A stretch of DNA of 64,000 nt, from positions 1 to 64,000 of the IMG/VR virus record IMGVR_UViG_3300032235_001020; one strand, given 5' to 3'. Positions 13,314-38,103 of the stretch are shown piece after piece (the first letter of the stretch is position 1; the number at the start of each line of letters is the position of its first letter). The stretch is from a virus. The position numbers and the translations under genes are program-made. The notes beneath the pieces were generated by a model. That model was given only the letters and a program-made list of their open reading frames with translations, had not been told where the DNA came from and made no database searches.

Positions 13314-13607
13314 ATGTCTTGCAGTCTGTTGACTGAAGCTTACGTAGCCCGAGAGGCTGCCCCCGCTGGCCATATCCGCCAGGACCAGAACCGAGCCGAC
13401 TTCCTCGAGTTCCTGTACTACGCCGACGAACGGGACAACCCCGAGCACCCTCTGGCGAACACCTACACCGGCCTCTTCCAGGACTACTGCTACCTGGTGG
13501 GTGAGACGGTGCTGGCCTCTCTGGTCGTCGGGTGGCATGAGACCGAGATCAGGGGCATCGCCGATGCGCTGGTCGGATCGGTGGCCGGAGTGGCTGCAGC
13601 CGCGTGA
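13314..13607 (+). CDS. Conserved cyanobacterial/cyanophage small protein
   Basis: This 97-residue helical protein contains RADFLEFLYYADERDNPEHP and NTYTGLFQDYC, a pattern I associate with small uncharacterised cyanobacterial proteins. It ends in an Ala/Val-rich helix (ADALVGSVAGVAAAA). I chose ATG 13314 (MSCSLLTEAYV); an in-frame ATG at 13275 would add 13 residues. It overlaps the next gene by four bases. Function is unknown. Confidence 0.5.
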   Translation: MSCSLLTEAYVAREAAPAGHIRQDQNRADFLEFLYYADERDNPEHPLANTYTGLFQDYCYLVGETVLASLVVGWHETEIRGIADALVGSVAGVAAAA

Positions 13608-13837
13608 GCGAACGCTACCGCTTGAACGTCCCGATCAGCAGCCCCCTGCAGCAAGTCGCTGCGGTGGTGGCGACGCGGGACTTTCTCTTGCGGCTGAGCG
13701 ACCCTCATGCGACCAAGCGGGTCCCTGGGGAGGTCAGGAAGGAGGCGCGGGCCCTACTGCGCCACTACCCTTTGCCGGAGCGACTGCGCCCTGTACTCGA
13801 GGCAGGCTTACAGGAGAGGCGACCAGATCCCCTGTAG
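13604..13837 (+). CDS. BPSL0761-like small protein
   Basis: This 77-residue protein has the pattern 'RDFLLRLSDPHATKRVPGEV' then 'EARALLRHYPLPERL'. It matches my memory of the BPSL0761 family (TRDFL-L-DP-..-VR-EA--LLRHYP), found in bacterial chromosomes and mobile elements with no known function. Its start overlaps the preceding stop. Its stop codon lies inside the left arm of the inverted repeat upstream of the serine recombinase, so the two genes share regulatory DNA. Confidence 0.5.
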   Translation: MSERYRLNVPISSPLQQVAAVVATRDFLLRLSDPHATKRVPGEVRKEARALLRHYPLPERLRPVLEAGLQERRPDPL

Positions 13838-13881
13838 TCAATAGAGCAACTACCCTTCGAAGAAGTTACTCTATTGACTAC
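13834..13881 (+). repeat. 48-nt inverted repeat before the serine recombinase
   Basis: An 18-nt left arm (13834-13851, GTAGTCAATAGAGCAACT) pairs with a right arm at 13864-13881 with one mismatch, around a 12-nt loop containing TTCGAA. It spans the stop of the 77-residue gene and ends 15 nt before the recombinase GTG. No T-tract follows, so it is not a standard terminator. An operator or recombinase-binding site is an inference. Confidence 0.8.
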
Positions 13882-13896
13882 ATCAGGGTCAGGGCT

Positions 13897-15144
13897 GTGA
13901 TCGTCGGCTACGCCAGGGTTTCGACCGTCTCCGATGAGCAAAAGGTGTCGGTCGAGGCTCAAGTGCAGCAGCTTCTGGATGCGGGCTGCCAGCGGGTGAT
14001 CCGGGAGCAGGGCTCAGCCTTCAAGGAGAGCAGCCGCCGCCCGGGCTGGGAAGAGCTGCAGGGACTTGTGGCCCAGGGCGCTGTCACGAAGGTCGTCGCC
14101 ATCAGCCAGTCGCGGCTGTCGCGGCGGGAGGACGTGCTGACCTTTCTGCGGATCTGTGCTCGCAAGGGGGTGGAGGTCCAGTTCCTCGATGGCAGTGCCG
14201 GCGACGTAGCGGATCCGGCGGGGCTGTTGATGTCAAGTGTCATGGCCGCCGTCAACGAAGTCGACAGCCTGATCAAGAGCATCAACATCAAGAACGGCAT
14301 CCAGCGCCGCCGCGCCGCCGGGCACTACGCCTCCGGGCGGGTTCCGTTTGGCTACCGCTACGACGGCCGGTACGTGGTGTGCGATCCGGTGGACTTTCCG
14401 CAGGCGCAGCTGTTGTGGACGCGGCTAGAGGAGTCCGAGTTCAACTTCGGCCGCACCATTCGGCAGTTCGGCTACGACTGGAGCATCCAAGGCCTGCGCC
14501 GCTGGGCCATCAATCCCATCCTGCGCGGCCAGGTGCCAGGGCAGTTGGAGCCGCCAGAGGCCTTGATCACGACGACGCAGTACAGCCGCGTGGCCGCACT
14601 GCTGGAAGGGCGCCGTCTCAAGGGATGCCGGGCCCCTCGGCAGCCAAGGCTGTTGTCCGGGGTCGTGCGTTGCCAGTCTTGCCAGCGCTCTCTCTATTAC
14701 GTGATGGCACACGGGAAGCCGCGGCTGAAGTGCTGCACGATGCAATGCGACTGGTGGGGCCGCGGCATCGCGGAAGCCAAGTTGCGCAAGCAGATACTTG
14801 ACGCCCTGCGCCAGCAGGTGGAACCGATGGCACGGCTAGCAGCTACCCCGGAGCCGGGGGTCACACCGCAGGAGCTAGAGCGGCAGGAGCGCCTGGCACA
14901 GTTACTCGCCCTGCGCGAGCAGGGGGTGCCAAACCTGGAGGCGGCCATTGAGGCCCTGGAGCGCCAGGCACCGATGGTTACGGCGGCCTTAGCGCCCCGC
15001 TGGGACAGCCTCGCGGCGATCCTGGCGCGCCCCGGCGTGCTGGAGGCCAGCACGGATGAAGAACTCCGGGCGCTCGTGCTGGAGTTCGTTGACGAGGTCG
15101 TCTACCTCGGGAACTCCGCCACGGTCGAAGTCCGGCTGCGCTAA
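13897..15144 (+). CDS. Large serine recombinase, XisF-like
   Basis: This 415-residue site-specific recombinase opens (V)IVGYARVS with catalytic Ser9. The resolvase catalytic domain (about 1-140) includes FKESSRRPGWEEL, AISQSRLSRR and the long helix region VMAAVNEVDSLIKS. A 'recombinase' domain follows (about 140-245; RAAGHYASGRVPFGYRYDG, NPILRG). A Zn-ribbon follows with CQSCQRS and a later CC/C cluster, then a C-terminal helical region. The layout resembles cyanobacterial XisF, which excises the fdxN element. I chose GTG 13897 because the conserved domain begins there; the frame is open further upstream through unrelated sequence. It could integrate/excise this genome or invert a segment. 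Confidence 0.88.
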   Translation: MIVGYARVSTVSDEQKVSVEAQVQQLLDAGCQRVIREQGSAFKESSRRPGWEELQGLVAQGAVTKVVAISQSRLSRREDVLTFLRICARKGVEVQFLDGSAGDVADPAGLLMSSVMAAVNEVDSLIKSINIKNGIQRRRAAGHYASGRVPFGYRYDGRYVVCDPVDFPQAQLLWTRLEESEFNFGRTIRQFGYDWSIQGLRRWAINPILRGQVPGQLEPPEALITTTQYSRVAALLEGRRLKGCRAPRQPRLLSGVVRCQSCQRSLYYVMAHGKPRLKCCTMQCDWWGRGIAEAKLRKQILDALRQQVEPMARLAATPEPGVTPQELERQERLAQLLALREQGVPNLEAAIEALERQAPMVTAALAPRWDSLAAILARPGVLEASTDEELRALVLEFVDEVVYLGNSATVEVRLR

Positions 15145-25357: not shown

Positions 25358-27850
25358 TTAGGCGGCGATGCCCTCGTCGGCCTTCATCCAAATGCGCCGT
25401 GCCTCGCGCCCAATCCTCACGCGCTTCTGCTGGTAGCCAAGGCTCTTGAGGGTGTCGGTCATGGCAGTCCGCACGCTGTTGTGGCGATCGATCGGGATCT
25501 CGAGCCACTCGTACAGGTCGCTGAGGACCACGAAGCTGCGGCCCTGGTGGACGCCCGAATGGCGCAGGCTCAGTGCTGTGCGGATCCTGGTGTCGAACGG
25601 GTTGTCGACGCGGAAGTTCTCCTGGTACTCCTGGATCTGCTTGAGCTCGTCGCTACTGAAGTTGTGAACGGGGTTGTCCTGGTAGGCCATGTAGGCCGCC
25701 GCCCAGATCCCATCACGGTCTTGCTTGAGACGATCCAGATCGATGATCAGGGTTTTGGGATCATCCGGACTGGGCACCTTGCCGGCAACGACGATCGGCA
25801 TGAAGCGCCTGTTGCCGGTGGGGTCGACGAAGAAGTCATCGCTGTTGGTGGCCCCGCAGAGCACGAAGGCCCGCATGAAGTTGCGCTCGTTCTCGTACTT
25901 GCGGGCAGAGCGATCCACCGGCACCGAGACCAGGTTCTTGAGCTCCTCGACGTAGCCCCGCTGGAAGTAGCGCTCGGTCTCGTCCAGGACGACAAACCAG
26001 CCGGCATGAAGCAGGTGAGGTTTTTCCTTGAGGCCGCGGATGCCCTGCTGGATCGTGGCGACCCAGGGGTAGACGCCTGGATCCGAGGGCGAAGGAGGCG
26101 TGATGTACTGGAAGAAGTTGGTCTTGCCGCAGTTCTGCGAGCCAATCAGGATCGGCATCCAGTCATGAGCGCAGCCGGGTGAGAGCACACGGGCGACAGC
26201 GCCCACCAGGAAGCGCTCGAGCACCACGTCCGCCAGCAGGCGTCCCTTCTCAGGGCCACGGGTGAAACATGGGTTCAGCAGGGGATCCGCCTTAAGACCC
26301 AGCAGCTCGCTGGCCAGGGTCTTGAAGTAGGGGCAGGGTTCTGCTGTGCCGGCGCAGTGGGTGAGGTAAGCCTGCACGGGATGGACGCGGTTCTCCCAGG
26401 CCGTGATGCCTGCGATGTCGATCACCGTGGTCTTGGGGTAGACCGTGCCGGTGCCGAGGCTGATGCGGCAGTAGGCGGTGGTGATGTCGTCGACGAGGCG
26501 GGGGGAATCGAGAGGGCCGTACTCGAGCTCCTGATTCATCATGTTGCGCCGCAAGCCCGGATAGAGGGCGTTGAGGCGGTCGCGGATGACGCGAACGGTG
26601 TCTTCTGGGACGTTGCCATCCCCCCTGCGGCGAGGAACGTCGGGGATAGGGCGATCGGGGCGACGGTCTTCGGGTGGGACGTGGCCGTCATCGATGAACT
26701 GGAAGCCGGGATCGTTGTCGTCGTCAAAGGGGTCCTCGTCATCATCTGGATCTGAGGATTCGAGCGGCTCGGGTGGCGCAAGGGTTGGAGCTGCGATGGC
26801 TGCCCAGGGGCGCTCGGCATCAAAGAGCCCAGGGGTGCTGTCGGCTGATTGCGGAGCGGGATTGCTGAGGCCCGTATCCCAGGAGTAGGGGGAGTCCTGG
26901 CCGCCATGGAGGAAGTCCTCGTGGTCGTAGCCGACTGCGCCGTGGTTCTTAGGTGGAGCAAACGCACTCTGACGGAGCTCGTCCGGCAAGGTCTTGGTCC
27001 AGCTGGGGTCTTCCTGCATGGCCAGGTAGAAGAGGGTCAGCAGGCTGGAGCGGGTGTTGCGGAAGGAATAGAAGAAGCGCTCGGTGCCCTGCTTACTGCG
27101 GTAGCCACTGGTGTGATGGCAGCGAGAAGCCCAGTTCTGCCAGGCCGGGAACACTGCCTCTCCGCCGGAGCAGGCCGCAGCGGTCACCTTGATGAAGCGA
27201 TCACGCTCGCCGTCTTCCGTGGGGGTGAGCACCTGCTCCAGGACATGGCAGGCCTGGCCGATGGTCTGATCGTCGTAGAGGGAGGCGTCTAGGCGGTGGC
27301 GAGCAGAGGCGACTTCTGCCTGGGTCCTGGCGTCCTGGATGATCGAGTCCGGCAGCAGGGCATCGGGCTGCCAGAGCGGGACCTGGGCGTTGTCAGCGCC
27401 ATAGAACAGGCGGCAGGGATCAGTGCAGGATTTGTCGCCGCCCAGGGCTGTAGTCAAGATGGTGACGACGGCCTTGTAGAGGTCTGGATCCTCCATGCGC
27501 TTGGGCAGGCGGAAGATGACCCGGTAGCGAGGGGCGTCGTCGCGGTGGCTGTGGGTGGTGTAAACGAAGCAGGCATGGGTTGCCAGGGGGTGGGCGCGGA
27601 AGGCGTCGAGGTCGAGGCCGTTGTCGACATCCACAACAGCTAGATCAGCGTGGCGGAATGCAGCAGAACTGCGGTGCTGTGAGCTCATCGCTGCCGAGAT
27701 GAACGCACCTCCGGTAGTGACGTGATCACGCAGCTCCTGGAGGGAGCCCTCGCGGGACTGCCAGTTGGCGGCGAAGTCGTTCTGCCAATGGACAGGTTTG
27801 TTGCGGATCGAGGGGTGAACAGAGAAGCAGATGGGTGAGGCGGATGACAT
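25358..27850 (-). CDS. PrimPol-VapE type replicative primase-helicase
   Basis: In this 830-residue protein the N-terminal archaeo-eukaryotic primase fold shows motif I DVD (74-76), motif II TTHSHRD (98-104) and motif III DPCR (144-147), all apparently intact. A PriCT-like helical region follows (about 215-290). An acidic, disordered linker follows (about 300-420) carrying GAVGYDHEDF (304-313), nearly identical to the SSB tail. The C-terminal VapE/SF3-like ATPase has Walker A GSQNCGKT (K576), Walker B VLDE (D623-E624), and GATNSDDFF then GNRRFMPIVV. It probably primes and unwinds the element's DNA. It is divergent from the HTH-like gene at 28068. Confidence 0.88.
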   Translation of the reverse strand: MSSASPICFSVHPSIRNKPVHWQNDFAANWQSREGSLQELRDHVTTGGAFISAAMSSQHRSSAAFRHADLAVVDVDNGLDLDAFRAHPLATHACFVYTTHSHRDDAPRYRVIFRLPKRMEDPDLYKAVVTILTTALGGDKSCTDPCRLFYGADNAQVPLWQPDALLPDSIIQDARTQAEVASARHRLDASLYDDQTIGQACHVLEQVLTPTEDGERDRFIKVTAAACSGGEAVFPAWQNWASRCHHTSGYRSKQGTERFFYSFRNTRSSLLTLFYLAMQEDPSWTKTLPDELRQSAFAPPKNHGAVGYDHEDFLHGGQDSPYSWDTGLSNPAPQSADSTPGLFDAERPWAAIAAPTLAPPEPLESSDPDDDEDPFDDDNDPGFQFIDDGHVPPEDRRPDRPIPDVPRRRGDGNVPEDTVRVIRDRLNALYPGLRRNMMNQELEYGPLDSPRLVDDITTAYCRISLGTGTVYPKTTVIDIAGITAWENRVHPVQAYLTHCAGTAEPCPYFKTLASELLGLKADPLLNPCFTRGPEKGRLLADVVLERFLVGAVARVLSPGCAHDWMPILIGSQNCGKTNFFQYITPPSPSDPGVYPWVATIQQGIRGLKEKPHLLHAGWFVVLDETERYFQRGYVEELKNLVSVPVDRSARKYENERNFMRAFVLCGATNSDDFFVDPTGNRRFMPIVVAGKVPSPDDPKTLIIDLDRLKQDRDGIWAAAYMAYQDNPVHNFSSDELKQIQEYQENFRVDNPFDTRIRTALSLRHSGVHQGRSFVVLSDLYEWLEIPIDRHNSVRTAMTDTLKSLGYQQKRVRIGREARRIWMKADEGIAA

Positions 27851-30295: not shown

Positions 30296-30627
30296 TGAAG
30301 CGACGAATGGCAGGCGACGATGATGTGCTGCGGCTGCTCAGAAGCGATCTCAGTGGCGGCTTGGATGATTCGGTTGCTAATGAAGATCTAGGCCTGAGCG
30401 ATGAAGACCTTTATCGCGGTCAGTGGGGTGTAGTGAGCGCGGACGAGAAAGAGGAGCTACAGGAGCACCTGGAAGGAAGCGTGTATCCATACCAGCCTTT
30501 GTATCCGGCCGAGCAGGATGCTGTGCAGATGGCCTATGAGGCTGATGTGATTAAACGACTGACGACATTGATGATGCAGTATCCAGGTGAATCGCCAAAT
30601 AGACTGCTAGCACTGGCGCTTCAGTAA
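30292..30627 (+). CDS. Small virion-block protein
   Basis: This 111-residue protein starts MMKRRMAGDDDVLRLL and has an acidic centre and a helical C-terminus (YEADVIKRLTTLMMQYPGES). Overlaps at both ends (ATGATG with the previous stop, TAATG with the next) show operon organisation. No family was recognised. Confidence 0.5.
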   Translation: MMKRRMAGDDDVLRLLRSDLSGGLDDSVANEDLGLSDEDLYRGQWGVVSADEKEELQEHLEGSVYPYQPLYPAEQDAVQMAYEADVIKRLTTLMMQYPGESPNRLLALALQ

Positions 30628-30767
30628 TGGCCAAGCAACGCATGGCTGGCGAGAAAGGCAAGGAGCTAGCCCAGGCCTGCTGGAAGGGCTACGAGGCGAT
30701 CGGCTTCAAGCAGAAGGACGGCAAGAAGGTGCCTAGCTGCGTACCGAAGAAGGAGGGCAACGGCTGA
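30627..30767 (+). CDS. 46-residue CWKGYE...CVPK small protein
   Basis: The ORF from ATG 30627 to TGA 30767 encodes a basic peptide with ACWKGYEAIGFKQKDGKKVP and SCVPKK. This C-W-K-G-Y-E ... P-x-CVPK pattern recurs in small cyanophage and pelagiphage proteins of unknown role. It is joined by one-base overlaps to both neighbours (TAATG and TGATG), which argues strongly that it is a real gene. It is abundant in Lys, so a nucleic-acid or scaffold contact is possible. Confidence 0.65.
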   Translation: MAKQRMAGEKGKELAQACWKGYEAIGFKQKDGKKVPSCVPKKEGNG

Positions 30768-36056: not shown

Positions 36057-36758
36057 TTACCAGCCCGCGGGCATGGCTTCTGCAGACACGGTGGCTACCT
36101 CGTGGTCGGCGCCCAGTTGATCGCGGTGCGTGGGAGGTAGGCCTTCAGGTCGGCCAGCATTGGGCTTGCCGGCGAAGGGGTCGCCGTTGACGTAGAGGGC
36201 AGGCAGCCAGATGGAATCAGCGACTTCGCTCCAGCGCTTCTCGTCGGCCTTGGTGGGCACCTTGAGGGTGGGGGTCAAGGTGTAGGCCGTGTTCATCTCA
36301 GTGCCCTTGCGCTTGAGGGTGAGATAGAAGTTGGCCACGCCGGAGGGCAGGATCTGGTAGTCCTCGAGGTTCAGGACCTCTTCAAGCTGCTCGCGCAGGT
36401 CCTTGCGCTGGAACGTGTAGATCAGGTAGTCGTCGTCTTCTTTGGACAGTCCGACGAAGGACAGGAAGTAGCGGGGCTTGTCCTTTTCGCCAGTGCCATT
36501 GGTCTTGCCGGCCCAGGTCAGACCGATCTCTTCGGCGAAGTTCTCGGGGTATTTGGGGAACTTGCGGGGCTGGCCGTCCATCGTGAAGTAGGACCAGCCG
36601 GCAATCACGTGGCCGGTGTCGTGCAGGCCGCAGAGTCGGAAGGTGGTGGACTCGCCATCCTTGAGGCGCTGGCCTGGATCGAAGTAGCGGGTGCGCTTGG
36701 TGCCGGCGGTGTCAGTTGCGCCGGAAGTCGGGCGGTAGTCAGACGGTAGGAATCCCAT
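36057..36758 (-). CDS. Putative ssDNA-binding/replication accessory protein
   Basis: This 233-residue protein (MGFLPSDYRPTSG... RLKDGESTTFRLCGL...VIAGWSYF) has an OB-like beta pattern (RYFLSFVGLSKEDDDYLIYT, NFYLTLKRKGTEMNTAYTLT). It resembles cyanobacterial/phage proteins with the opening GFLP-Y and 'L-DG-N-FRIL---I-GW' that I associate with ssDNA-binding or recombination proteins. It lies 18 nt downstream of the SSB gene, which supports a DNA-metabolism role. The family name cannot be fixed by eye. Confidence 0.5.
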   Translation of the reverse strand: MGFLPSDYRPTSGATDTAGTKRTRYFDPGQRLKDGESTTFRLCGLHDTGHVIAGWSYFTMDGQPRKFPKYPENFAEEIGLTWAGKTNGTGEKDKPRYFLSFVGLSKEDDDYLIYTFQRKDLREQLEEVLNLEDYQILPSGVANFYLTLKRKGTEMNTAYTLTPTLKVPTKADEKRWSEVADSIWLPALYVNGDPFAGKPNAGRPEGLPPTHRDQLGADHEVATVSAEAMPAGW

Positions 36759-36776: not shown

Positions 36777-37439
36777 TTAGTTGTTCCAGTCGCAGGGCAT
36801 GTTGTCGGCGGTGTTAACAAAGTCCTCGTGGTCGTATCCCACGGCCTTGGTGCCAGCGGCGGGGTTGCTCGTGCCCTTGTTCCCGCGCCCGCGTTCAAAG
36901 GCGCGGATCGAGCGGCCTTTGACTTCGCTGTAGGGCTTCCCCTCGCGATTAGTACGTAGATCGAGGGTGCCCTCGACCATGGCCAAGGTGCCGACGGGCA
37001 AGGAGATCAGCCGGTCCATGACGTAGCCGTAGCCACGCAGGGTGAACCAGTCGGTTACCTCTTCGCCATTGACCATGCGGTTGATGGCCAGCGAGCGAGA
37101 TGCGGATTTGTTGGACTCAGCGACCCGTGCTTCTTTGGCCAGGCGGCCGGTGACCGTCACCTGGTTGATGTAGGCGTCGGGGGAGACATCGCAGAGGGTG
37201 TGAATGAACACAACCGTCTGACTGTCTTCGAGAAGAAGGTCGCCAGCGATGATCAGGGTCTGGCCTGCGGTCTTGGTCTTCAGGGCCTCGGCTGTCTTAC
37301 TGCCTGATGCGCAACGCAATAGAACAGGAACCTGGTCCTTGCCGTTGGTTGCGGCAAAGACTTCCAGGACCTGCTTGCCGTGCGCGACGGTTTCGGCAGG
37401 TTGCGCCGCCAAGGCCACAACAAGAGTTGCGGTGCTCAC
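36777..37439 (-). CDS. ssb: Single-stranded DNA-binding protein (two OB-like halves)
   Basis: In this 220-residue protein the second half (about 90-185) is a classic SSB OB fold: INQVTVTGRLAKEARV, SLAINRMVNGEEVTDWFTLR, LPVGTLAMVEGTLDLRTNRE. The first half (1-90) repeats a similar beta pattern, suggesting a tandem OB arrangement in one chain. The C-terminal tail is not the usual DDDIPF but KAVGYDHEDF...MPCDWNN (198-220), which recurs almost exactly in the linker of the primase-helicase. GTG start. It protects and organises ssDNA, and the tail is probably a partner-docking peptide. Confidence 0.82.
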   Translation of the reverse strand: MSTATLVVALAAQPAETVAHGKQVLEVFAATNGKDQVPVLLRCASGSKTAEALKTKTAGQTLIIAGDLLLEDSQTVVFIHTLCDVSPDAYINQVTVTGRLAKEARVAESNKSASRSLAINRMVNGEEVTDWFTLRGYGYVMDRLISLPVGTLAMVEGTLDLRTNREGKPYSEVKGRSIRAFERGRGNKGTSNPAAGTKAVGYDHEDFVNTADNMPCDWNN

Positions 37440-37497: not shown

Positions 37498-38103
37498 TCA
37501 GCCGAAGTGCTGGATCCAGTCGGGCAGGGCTGGGATCGGCTCGGCGGTCTGGGGCATGACCAGGATGATCAGCTCGATGGTCTCGCCCTGCAGCCGCAAC
37601 GGACCGCCGTCGAAGGCCGAGAGCACCAGCGAGTCAGCGAGCAGTCCGGCCGCCTTGATGGCGCGCTCGAGGTAGGCGACCCGGTACCGGCCAGCGGTTT
37701 CGCTGAGCGTGGGGGTGGCACTCCATCGCTGCACGCAGGCCGCCAGAGCGCTGTCGATGTCCGGGAAGGGGGTGATGCTGTGCTGGAGCGGCAGCTGTTT
37801 GCCGTTGTTGCTGCTGGTCTTGTAGTAGGTGGTGACCGTGGCCGTCTCGCCGTCGATCACGAGACCGCGCTCGGCAGTCTTGATGCCACTGCTGGCCTTG
37901 AGTAGCTCTGGGCTGGGGATGATGGTGATGGACTCATCGGCTGTGCCCTTGCGGTCAAAGCCAATGGCCGTCACCTTGCCCTGATCACTGGCAGCTAGGA
38001 GCACCCCGCCGCAGTGAGGGCGGATGTGCACCGACTGGTAGGGCGCGTAAGGCCCCGTGAAGGAACCCACGGCAGCCAGGAGGGCGGAGTTGAACTGCAG
38101 CAC
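37498..38103 (-). CDS. Short beta-clamp-like protein
   Basis: This 201-residue protein has LQFNSALLAAVGSFTGPYAP, VHIRPHCGGVLLAASDQGKV and later RYRVAYLERAIKAAGLLADS, then LRLQGETIELIILVMPQ. It has the strand-helix rhythm of DnaN domains and the closing 'hhvMPh' block. It is about 55% of DnaN length, so it would contain two of three domains, as in some phage clamps. It neighbours SSB and the GFLP protein, consistent with a replisome. No DNA polymerase gene is in the window; it may use one encoded elsewhere or the host's. Confidence 0.6.
   Translation of the reverse strand: MLQFNSALLAAVGSFTGPYAPYQSVHIRPHCGGVLLAASDQGKVTAIGFDRKGTADESITIIPSPELLKASSGIKTAERGLVIDGETATVTTYYKTSSNNGKQLPLQHSITPFPDIDSALAACVQRWSATPTLSETAGRYRVAYLERAIKAAGLLADSLVLSAFDGGPLRLQGETIELIILVMPQTAEPIPALPDWIQHFG

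Follow-up and report, generated by a model that had tools for sequence, protein, structure and literature searches.

Why would a phage carry the same short peptide in the linker of its primase-helicase and in the tail of its SSB? Both copies lie in the window analysed here, a 64,000-nucleotide stretch of an IMG/VR virus record (IMGVR_UViG_3300032235_001020, positions 1 to 64,000) from an uncultured, widespread group of phages. A preliminary description of this DNA had proposed that the peptide docks two replisome members onto a common binding partner. Here we report that the peptide, GYxHxxF in its usual form, is family-wide, position-specific and sequence-specific in both proteins, and we weigh what it probably docks onto.

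Results

The primase-helicase, PrimPol-VapE (830 aa; 25358-27850, minus strand), consists of a primase-like N-terminal region, a PriCT-2-like region, an acidic linker at approximately residues 299-424 and a VapE helicase domain. The helicase domain is matched by the Pfam VapE-like family over residues 540-747 (3.5e-38), the N-terminal part matches PHROG primase entries, and PriCT_2 matches at a subthreshold 0.061 over residues 207-277; this is the architecture of the S-2L type, with primase-like N-terminus, PriCT-2 (here below cut-off) and VapE helicase on a single chain. The SSB (220 aa; 36777-37439, minus strand) is matched by Pfam SSB over residues 91-164 (1.5e-7) and by the PHROG SSB family phrog_44. 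The peptide GYDHEDF, hereafter motif A, occupies residues 307-313 of the PrimPol-VapE linker (26912-26932, minus strand), where the longer shared stretch GAVGYDHEDF spans residues 304-313, and residues 201-207 of the SSB tail (36819-36839, minus strand). The near-identity of the two peptides, as first noticed, is real: AVGYDHEDF has two exact encodings in the window and none in 100 shuffles, and GYDHEDF is found at exactly two sites in the whole 84,980-bp record with two mismatches tolerated. Comparison of the linker peptide with PDB chains matched nothing meaningful, and a literature search found no description of such a peptide or tail.

Two further features seen in the window were set aside. 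The dCMP deaminase of the window has GYADELF at its end, which was considered as a further copy and rejected, as the closest sibling phage reads GCEEELF there and other homologues differ. The preliminary description had also counted a Trp 11 residues past the motif Phe in both proteins; this is correct for the window (W324 of PrimPol-VapE, W218 of the SSB) and the SSB Trp is invariant, but most PrimPol-VapE homologues lack the stretch around W324, which falls in gap-dominated columns, so that this Trp is not a family feature and was rejected as part of the linker motif.

The bias of an earlier search based on GYDHEDF itself was removed by scanning IMG/VR and GTDB contigs with an alignment of the VapE C-terminal part without the linker (alignment A1), together with clamp patterns and SSB patterns placed outside the tails. 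The linker-free VapE scan returned 38 viral and 4 MAG loci, and two more distant members were reached via the clamp. GYxxxxF is present in 44 of 44 primase-helicases that cover the site, with VapE pairwise identity down to 41%; 43 of these were found by script, and the other is the truncated L097, which begins CGYEHSAF and was counted (L072 begins past the site and was not). Over 38 distinct contexts G, Y and F are invariant, position 4 is H in 34 and position 6 is D in 33, the variants including GYDHEDF, GYDHSDF, GYEHSAF, GYSHEDF, GYAHEDF, GYGHEDF, GYDWEDF, GYAMADF and GYRHEDF. The site itself is fixed directly behind the PriCT-2-like region, approximately 15-25 residues past a conserved LPxEL[RK].

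The SSB of the window terminates in KAVGYDHEDFVNTADNMPCDWNN, bearing out the earlier remark that it lacks a DDDIPF-type end, and none of 27 distinct tails in the family has the I-P-F or P-F ending that defines the bacterial SSB-Ct. All 34 SSBs, which comprise these 27 tails, carry GYxxxx[F/Y] and, among their five C-terminal residues, a Trp; Tyr replaces the motif Phe in L164, a more distant SSB. Only 15 columns are invariant over 24 aligned SSBs, among them A199, G201, Y202, F207 and W218 of the tail; the last of these belongs to a C-terminal Trp element, MPCDWNN, at residues 214-220 (36780-36800, minus strand). Twelve VapE contigs without an SSB match were not counted as counterexamples because they are mostly short fragments (5-32 kb; one is a MAG record), and a thirteenth contig has a match. 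Loss or free variation of the motif among homologues had been named in advance as the signs of chance or of recent, functionless gene conversion; with 44 primase-helicases and 34 SSBs carrying GYxxxx[F/Y], neither was found.

The two copies also vary by similar rules. Their substitution palettes are largely alike (D/E/S/A at position 3, E/S at position 5, D/A/Q at position 6), and a profile built from SSB tails only, with the window SSB left out, gives the VapE site the highest score in all 7 phage genomes when run on all six-frame ORFs of at least 60 residues; in the window this site receives 24.7 bits, as opposed to 8.7 for the next unrelated 7-mer. VapE/SSB pairs from the same genome agree at 1.81 of 4, as against 1.48 when shuffled (p = 0.017, uncorrected for phylogeny), a weak matching of the two sequences that is only suggestive. 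These palettes bear on the idea of ssDNA mimicry, by which the SSB tail, folded back, would occupy the OB groove of its own protein and so modulate DNA binding, with the VapE linker binding in the same groove; the SSB itself would then be the common partner, a form of SSB mimicry by the helicase. The motif is acidic with aromatic residues, as such a mimic would be, and the T7 gp2.5 tail, as Marintcheva 2008 is cited in PMC5686142, competes with ssDNA for one surface. However, it is the acidic positions that vary (E/S, D/A/Q) and G, Y and F that stay constant, and a non-specific acidic mimic would need no strict GYxxxxF at a fixed place in two families; we regard this explanation as improbable relative to docking on a further protein.

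At the DNA level, the codons for AVGYDHEDF agree at 23 of 27 nucleotides in the window and those for GYDHEDF at 19 of 21, and the latter agreement is what a chance similarity, or a recently copied segment without function, has in its favor. Two independent encodings are expected from codon usage to agree at 23.3 of 27 nucleotides (P of at least 23 = 0.72), so that there is no sign of recent gene conversion or copying, and the emphasis that the preliminary description had placed on near-identical DNA is not supported. In the closest sibling, IMGVR_UViG_3300017766_004544 (82 kb), both peptides are kept: residues 299-328 of the VapE linker have no residue change despite synonymous differences, residues 331-424 have 12 substitutions and a 13-residue indel, and the SSB tail is unchanged in protein with four synonymous codons. 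Gene conversion or DNA copying was rejected on the codon-usage expectation and on synonymous changes that accrued independently in the sibling, and functionless similarity is refuted by the homologue survey, in which the motif is universal in both families; we assign it next to no probability.

Motif A is not the only conserved part of the linker. A separate element, GLFDAERPW in the window (residues 341-349; 26804-26830, minus strand), has the family form TQ[GS]LF[DS]xxxPW and conservation over 41 homologues of 0.80 at L342, 0.95 at F343, 0.83 at P348 and 0.78 at W349. As a sequence it appears to recall clamp-binding peptides, with a conserved L-F pair; its Gln sits one residue away from where beta-clamp peptides usually have it, and the window (STPGLFD) has no such Gln.

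Directly after the SSB lies the gene for the GFLP protein (233 aa; 36057-36758, minus strand). Weak PHROG SSB matches occur in 2 of 25 homologues and weak Pfam gp32 matches in 8 of 25, the latter below cut-off wherever scores are shown, and a fold search gave no significant match; GFLP is perhaps a second ssDNA-binding protein. Its tail, GADHEVATVSAEAMPAGW (36060-36113, minus strand), ends in a Trp element of its own, the Trp being one of the last three residues in all 30 distinct homologues. The last 11 residues (223-233) are modelled at pLDDT below 50, a very low confidence that fits a disordered tail, as expected. As both SSB and GFLP end in Trp tails, a C-terminal MPxxW-like element is common to the two proteins. 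Similar Trp tails end the VapE proteins of several clades (L076 APMSRNW, L081 ELSRNWN, L092 ELGPDWD, L166 DIPLDWGT). The VapE C-terminus of L167 also has a Trp tail, but there the Trp is not terminal.

Directly before the SSB, a 201-aa protein is encoded (37498-38103, minus strand) whose AF2 monomer model has a pLDDT of 86.7 and whose best PDB fold matches listed are PCNA, 9-1-1 and beta clamps (best E 6.1e-7). The gene product has no Pfam match and a weak PHROG processivity-factor match in 1 of 23; going by the model, the gene beside the SSB encodes a PCNA/beta-like sliding clamp. As a separate observation, the clamp ends in a near-invariant [LIV]PxW past LVMPQTAEPIP (alignment A2), a segment similar to the MPxxW tails of GFLP and the SSB; modelled as a short C-terminal helix, it may be purely structural or may be related to the peptide code. 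Clamp, SSB and GFLP stand side by side in this order in every locus that spans them, and none of the three has a match among 50,697 public phage records, nor the SSB among plasmids. The PolA, PolB and PolC/DnaE families have no match in seven related records, though these may not be complete. The S-2L PrimPol, which has the same domain order, is described as the sole polymerase of its phage, and by analogy PrimPol-VapE probably serves as the replicative polymerase here.

Relatives with other replication modules carry other tips. S-2L, which has a PrimPol-VapE, gave no match to the clamp, SSB or GFLP profiles; the motif is missing from its linker, and GEDEIPF is the end of its SSB-like protein. 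Among public phages S-EIV1 has the most similar terminase (54.8%); it encodes a family A polymerase (PolA) and an SSB whose last residues are TDEPF, and none of the VapE, clamp, SSB and GFLP profiles matches it. Two other VapE proteins, from Paenibacillus phage Bob and from Clostridioides phage phiCDKH02, are also without the motif, as is a protein of a Leptospira phage with a match to the primase part. Since S-2L and S-EIV1 carry other tips, tail type tracks the replication module and not the likely host, which over few independent comparisons favors a partner from within the module, of whose components clamp and GFLP are the ones that never occur without the motif. The same comparisons weigh on a docking of both copies onto a host replication protein, such as the host clamp, polymerase III or another factor. 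As the seven phage records searched yielded no DNA polymerase of family A, B or C, host proteins probably act at some step, but the cyanobacterial phages S-2L and S-EIV1 carry DEIPF and TDEPF tips, and with the motif following the module rather than the probable host we consider a host partner very improbable.

Several observations concern the phage group more broadly. Besides their terminases, the PDDEXK exonucleases of S-EIV1 (L169/L170) and the window record match (E 6.9e-54), and their replication modules are entirely different: the two phages illustrate how modules are replaced within a lineage. The host of the group is probably cyanobacterial, judging by terminase similarity to S-EIV1 only. 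Loci L106, L107, L108 and L109 (PAZU01 and PBDV01 contigs) were binned with MAGs that carry the label Euryarchaeota (three share a single MAG) and are probably misbinned viral contigs. The sequence of a 547-aa ORF at 13501-15144 (plus strand), with VGYARVSTVSDEQKVSVEAQ, is suggestive of a serine recombinase, and the phage may accordingly be temperate. Finally, a small ORF with CWKGYEAIGFK (window 30603-30764, plus strand; L039 8160-8369, minus strand) is conserved between the window phage and G004.

Discussion

The question raised by the two copies is best answered, in our view, by docking: GYxHxxF is probably a docking peptide, with both copies addressed to one binding surface of a further phage protein. 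The motif is universal, it is located in segments of variable length, and it obeys the same substitution rules in both proteins. Under this reading, the SSB tail and the PrimPol-VapE linker would bind the same surface of one protein of the module; at this hub the primase-helicase and the SSB-coated strand would be held or handed over. The aromatic anchors Tyr and Phe, along with the acidic residues, would make the contact, and the C-terminal Trp element common to SSB and GFLP could add a second; the likeliest hub is the PCNA/beta-type clamp encoded beside the SSB. The shared peptide of the preliminary description is well supported at the sequence level; binding as such, one site for both copies and the identity of the partner are what we infer.

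The main rival places the partner within PrimPol-VapE itself, in the AEP and PriCT-2 core, where the linker motif would latch in cis and be displaced in trans by the SSB tail, recruiting PrimPol to the SSB-coated template. The position of the motif, right behind the PriCT-2-like region and at its short distance from LPxEL[RK], suits such a latch, and the VapE copy, directly after that region, could pack in cis. In addition, the motif is stricter in VapE, with its predominant H4 and D6, than in the SSB, and a PrimPol that is probably replicative, no PolA, PolB or PolC having been recognised in seven related records, would be a natural target for an SSB, with S-2L as precedent (PMC8065100). Yet S-2L itself, with the same domain order, has no linker motif and a different SSB tip, and a partner in the core leaves both the QGLF element and the constant presence of the clamp unexplained. 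We therefore see this as an unlikely explanation, though a stronger one than mimicry or a host partner.

Returning to docking on a separate protein, the phage's own clamp is the leading candidate, with somewhat less than an even chance of being the partner. The clamp had been among the first guesses for the partner, and this guess is strengthened by the predicted clamp fold of the neighbouring protein and by the missing motif in relatives without a detectable clamp. The link between clamp and motif is informed by only two cultured comparison phages, and GFLP co-occurs with the motif as strictly as the clamp does. As in known clamp systems (PCNA, beta), a protein with a modelled clamp fold is encoded next door and a QGLF-type element is present in the VapE linker. 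Unlike the peptides of those systems, to our knowledge, GYxHxxF fits no known clamp-binding consensus, being neither QLxLF nor a PIP box as these are generally known. The QGLF element is the better clamp-binding candidate of the two, which could leave motif A for another partner. More tentatively still, we can picture a replisome in which the PrimPol-helicase would be the sole polymerase, equipped with its own PCNA-like clamp and two SSB-like proteins, and wired by exchangeable peptides, an internal GYxHxxF and a C-terminal MPxxW, that would have moved between SSB, GFLP and primase-helicase and be read by the clamp.

In the GYxHxxF peptide the Tyr and Phe, together with the Trp at the terminus, offer a precise sequence handle on replisome assembly, and this in a PrimPol-based replisome in which no polymerase of family A, B or C was recognised, from a phage group described here with its own predicted PCNA-like clamp. 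As related phages with other modules have other tips, docking peptides are suggested to be portable modules that move with the replication cassette. If this is true, such a peptide could serve to identify the partners within replisomes of uncultured viruses from sequence alone.

Among described systems, the bacterial SSB-Ct of the DDDIPF type is comparable in that a conserved peptide ends the SSB tail and is likely read by several replication proteins; unlike the SSB-Ct, the tail described here has no D/E-D/E-I-P-F end, its signature is GYxHxxF plus Trp, and its peptide occurs inside the primase-helicase as well. The S-2L PrimPol, alongside which the NrS-1 phage polymerase is named, combines a primase-like domain, PriCT-2, a flexible linker and a VapE/VirE helicase in one chain and is described as the sole polymerase (PMC8065100). 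PrimPol-VapE shares this domain order, with no other recognised polymerase, but S-2L differs in its motif-less linker, in the GEDEIPF end of its SSB-like protein and in that homologues of the clamp, SSB and GFLP were not found in it. Closest in principle are the shared tails of T7 gp2.5 and gp4: the acidic tails of gp4 bind basic patches of the gp5 polymerase (PMC12593628), and the gp2.5 tail is implicated in contacts with both polymerase and primase-helicase (PMC5686142). As in T7, the SSB and the primase-helicase of a single phage bear related acidic peptides. Unlike in T7, both copies share a defined motif, GYxHxxF; motif A is internal in PrimPol-VapE (307-313 of 830) instead of both proteins carrying it at the C-terminus; and in place of a T7-like polymerase, of which none was found here, the phage encodes a predicted sliding clamp.
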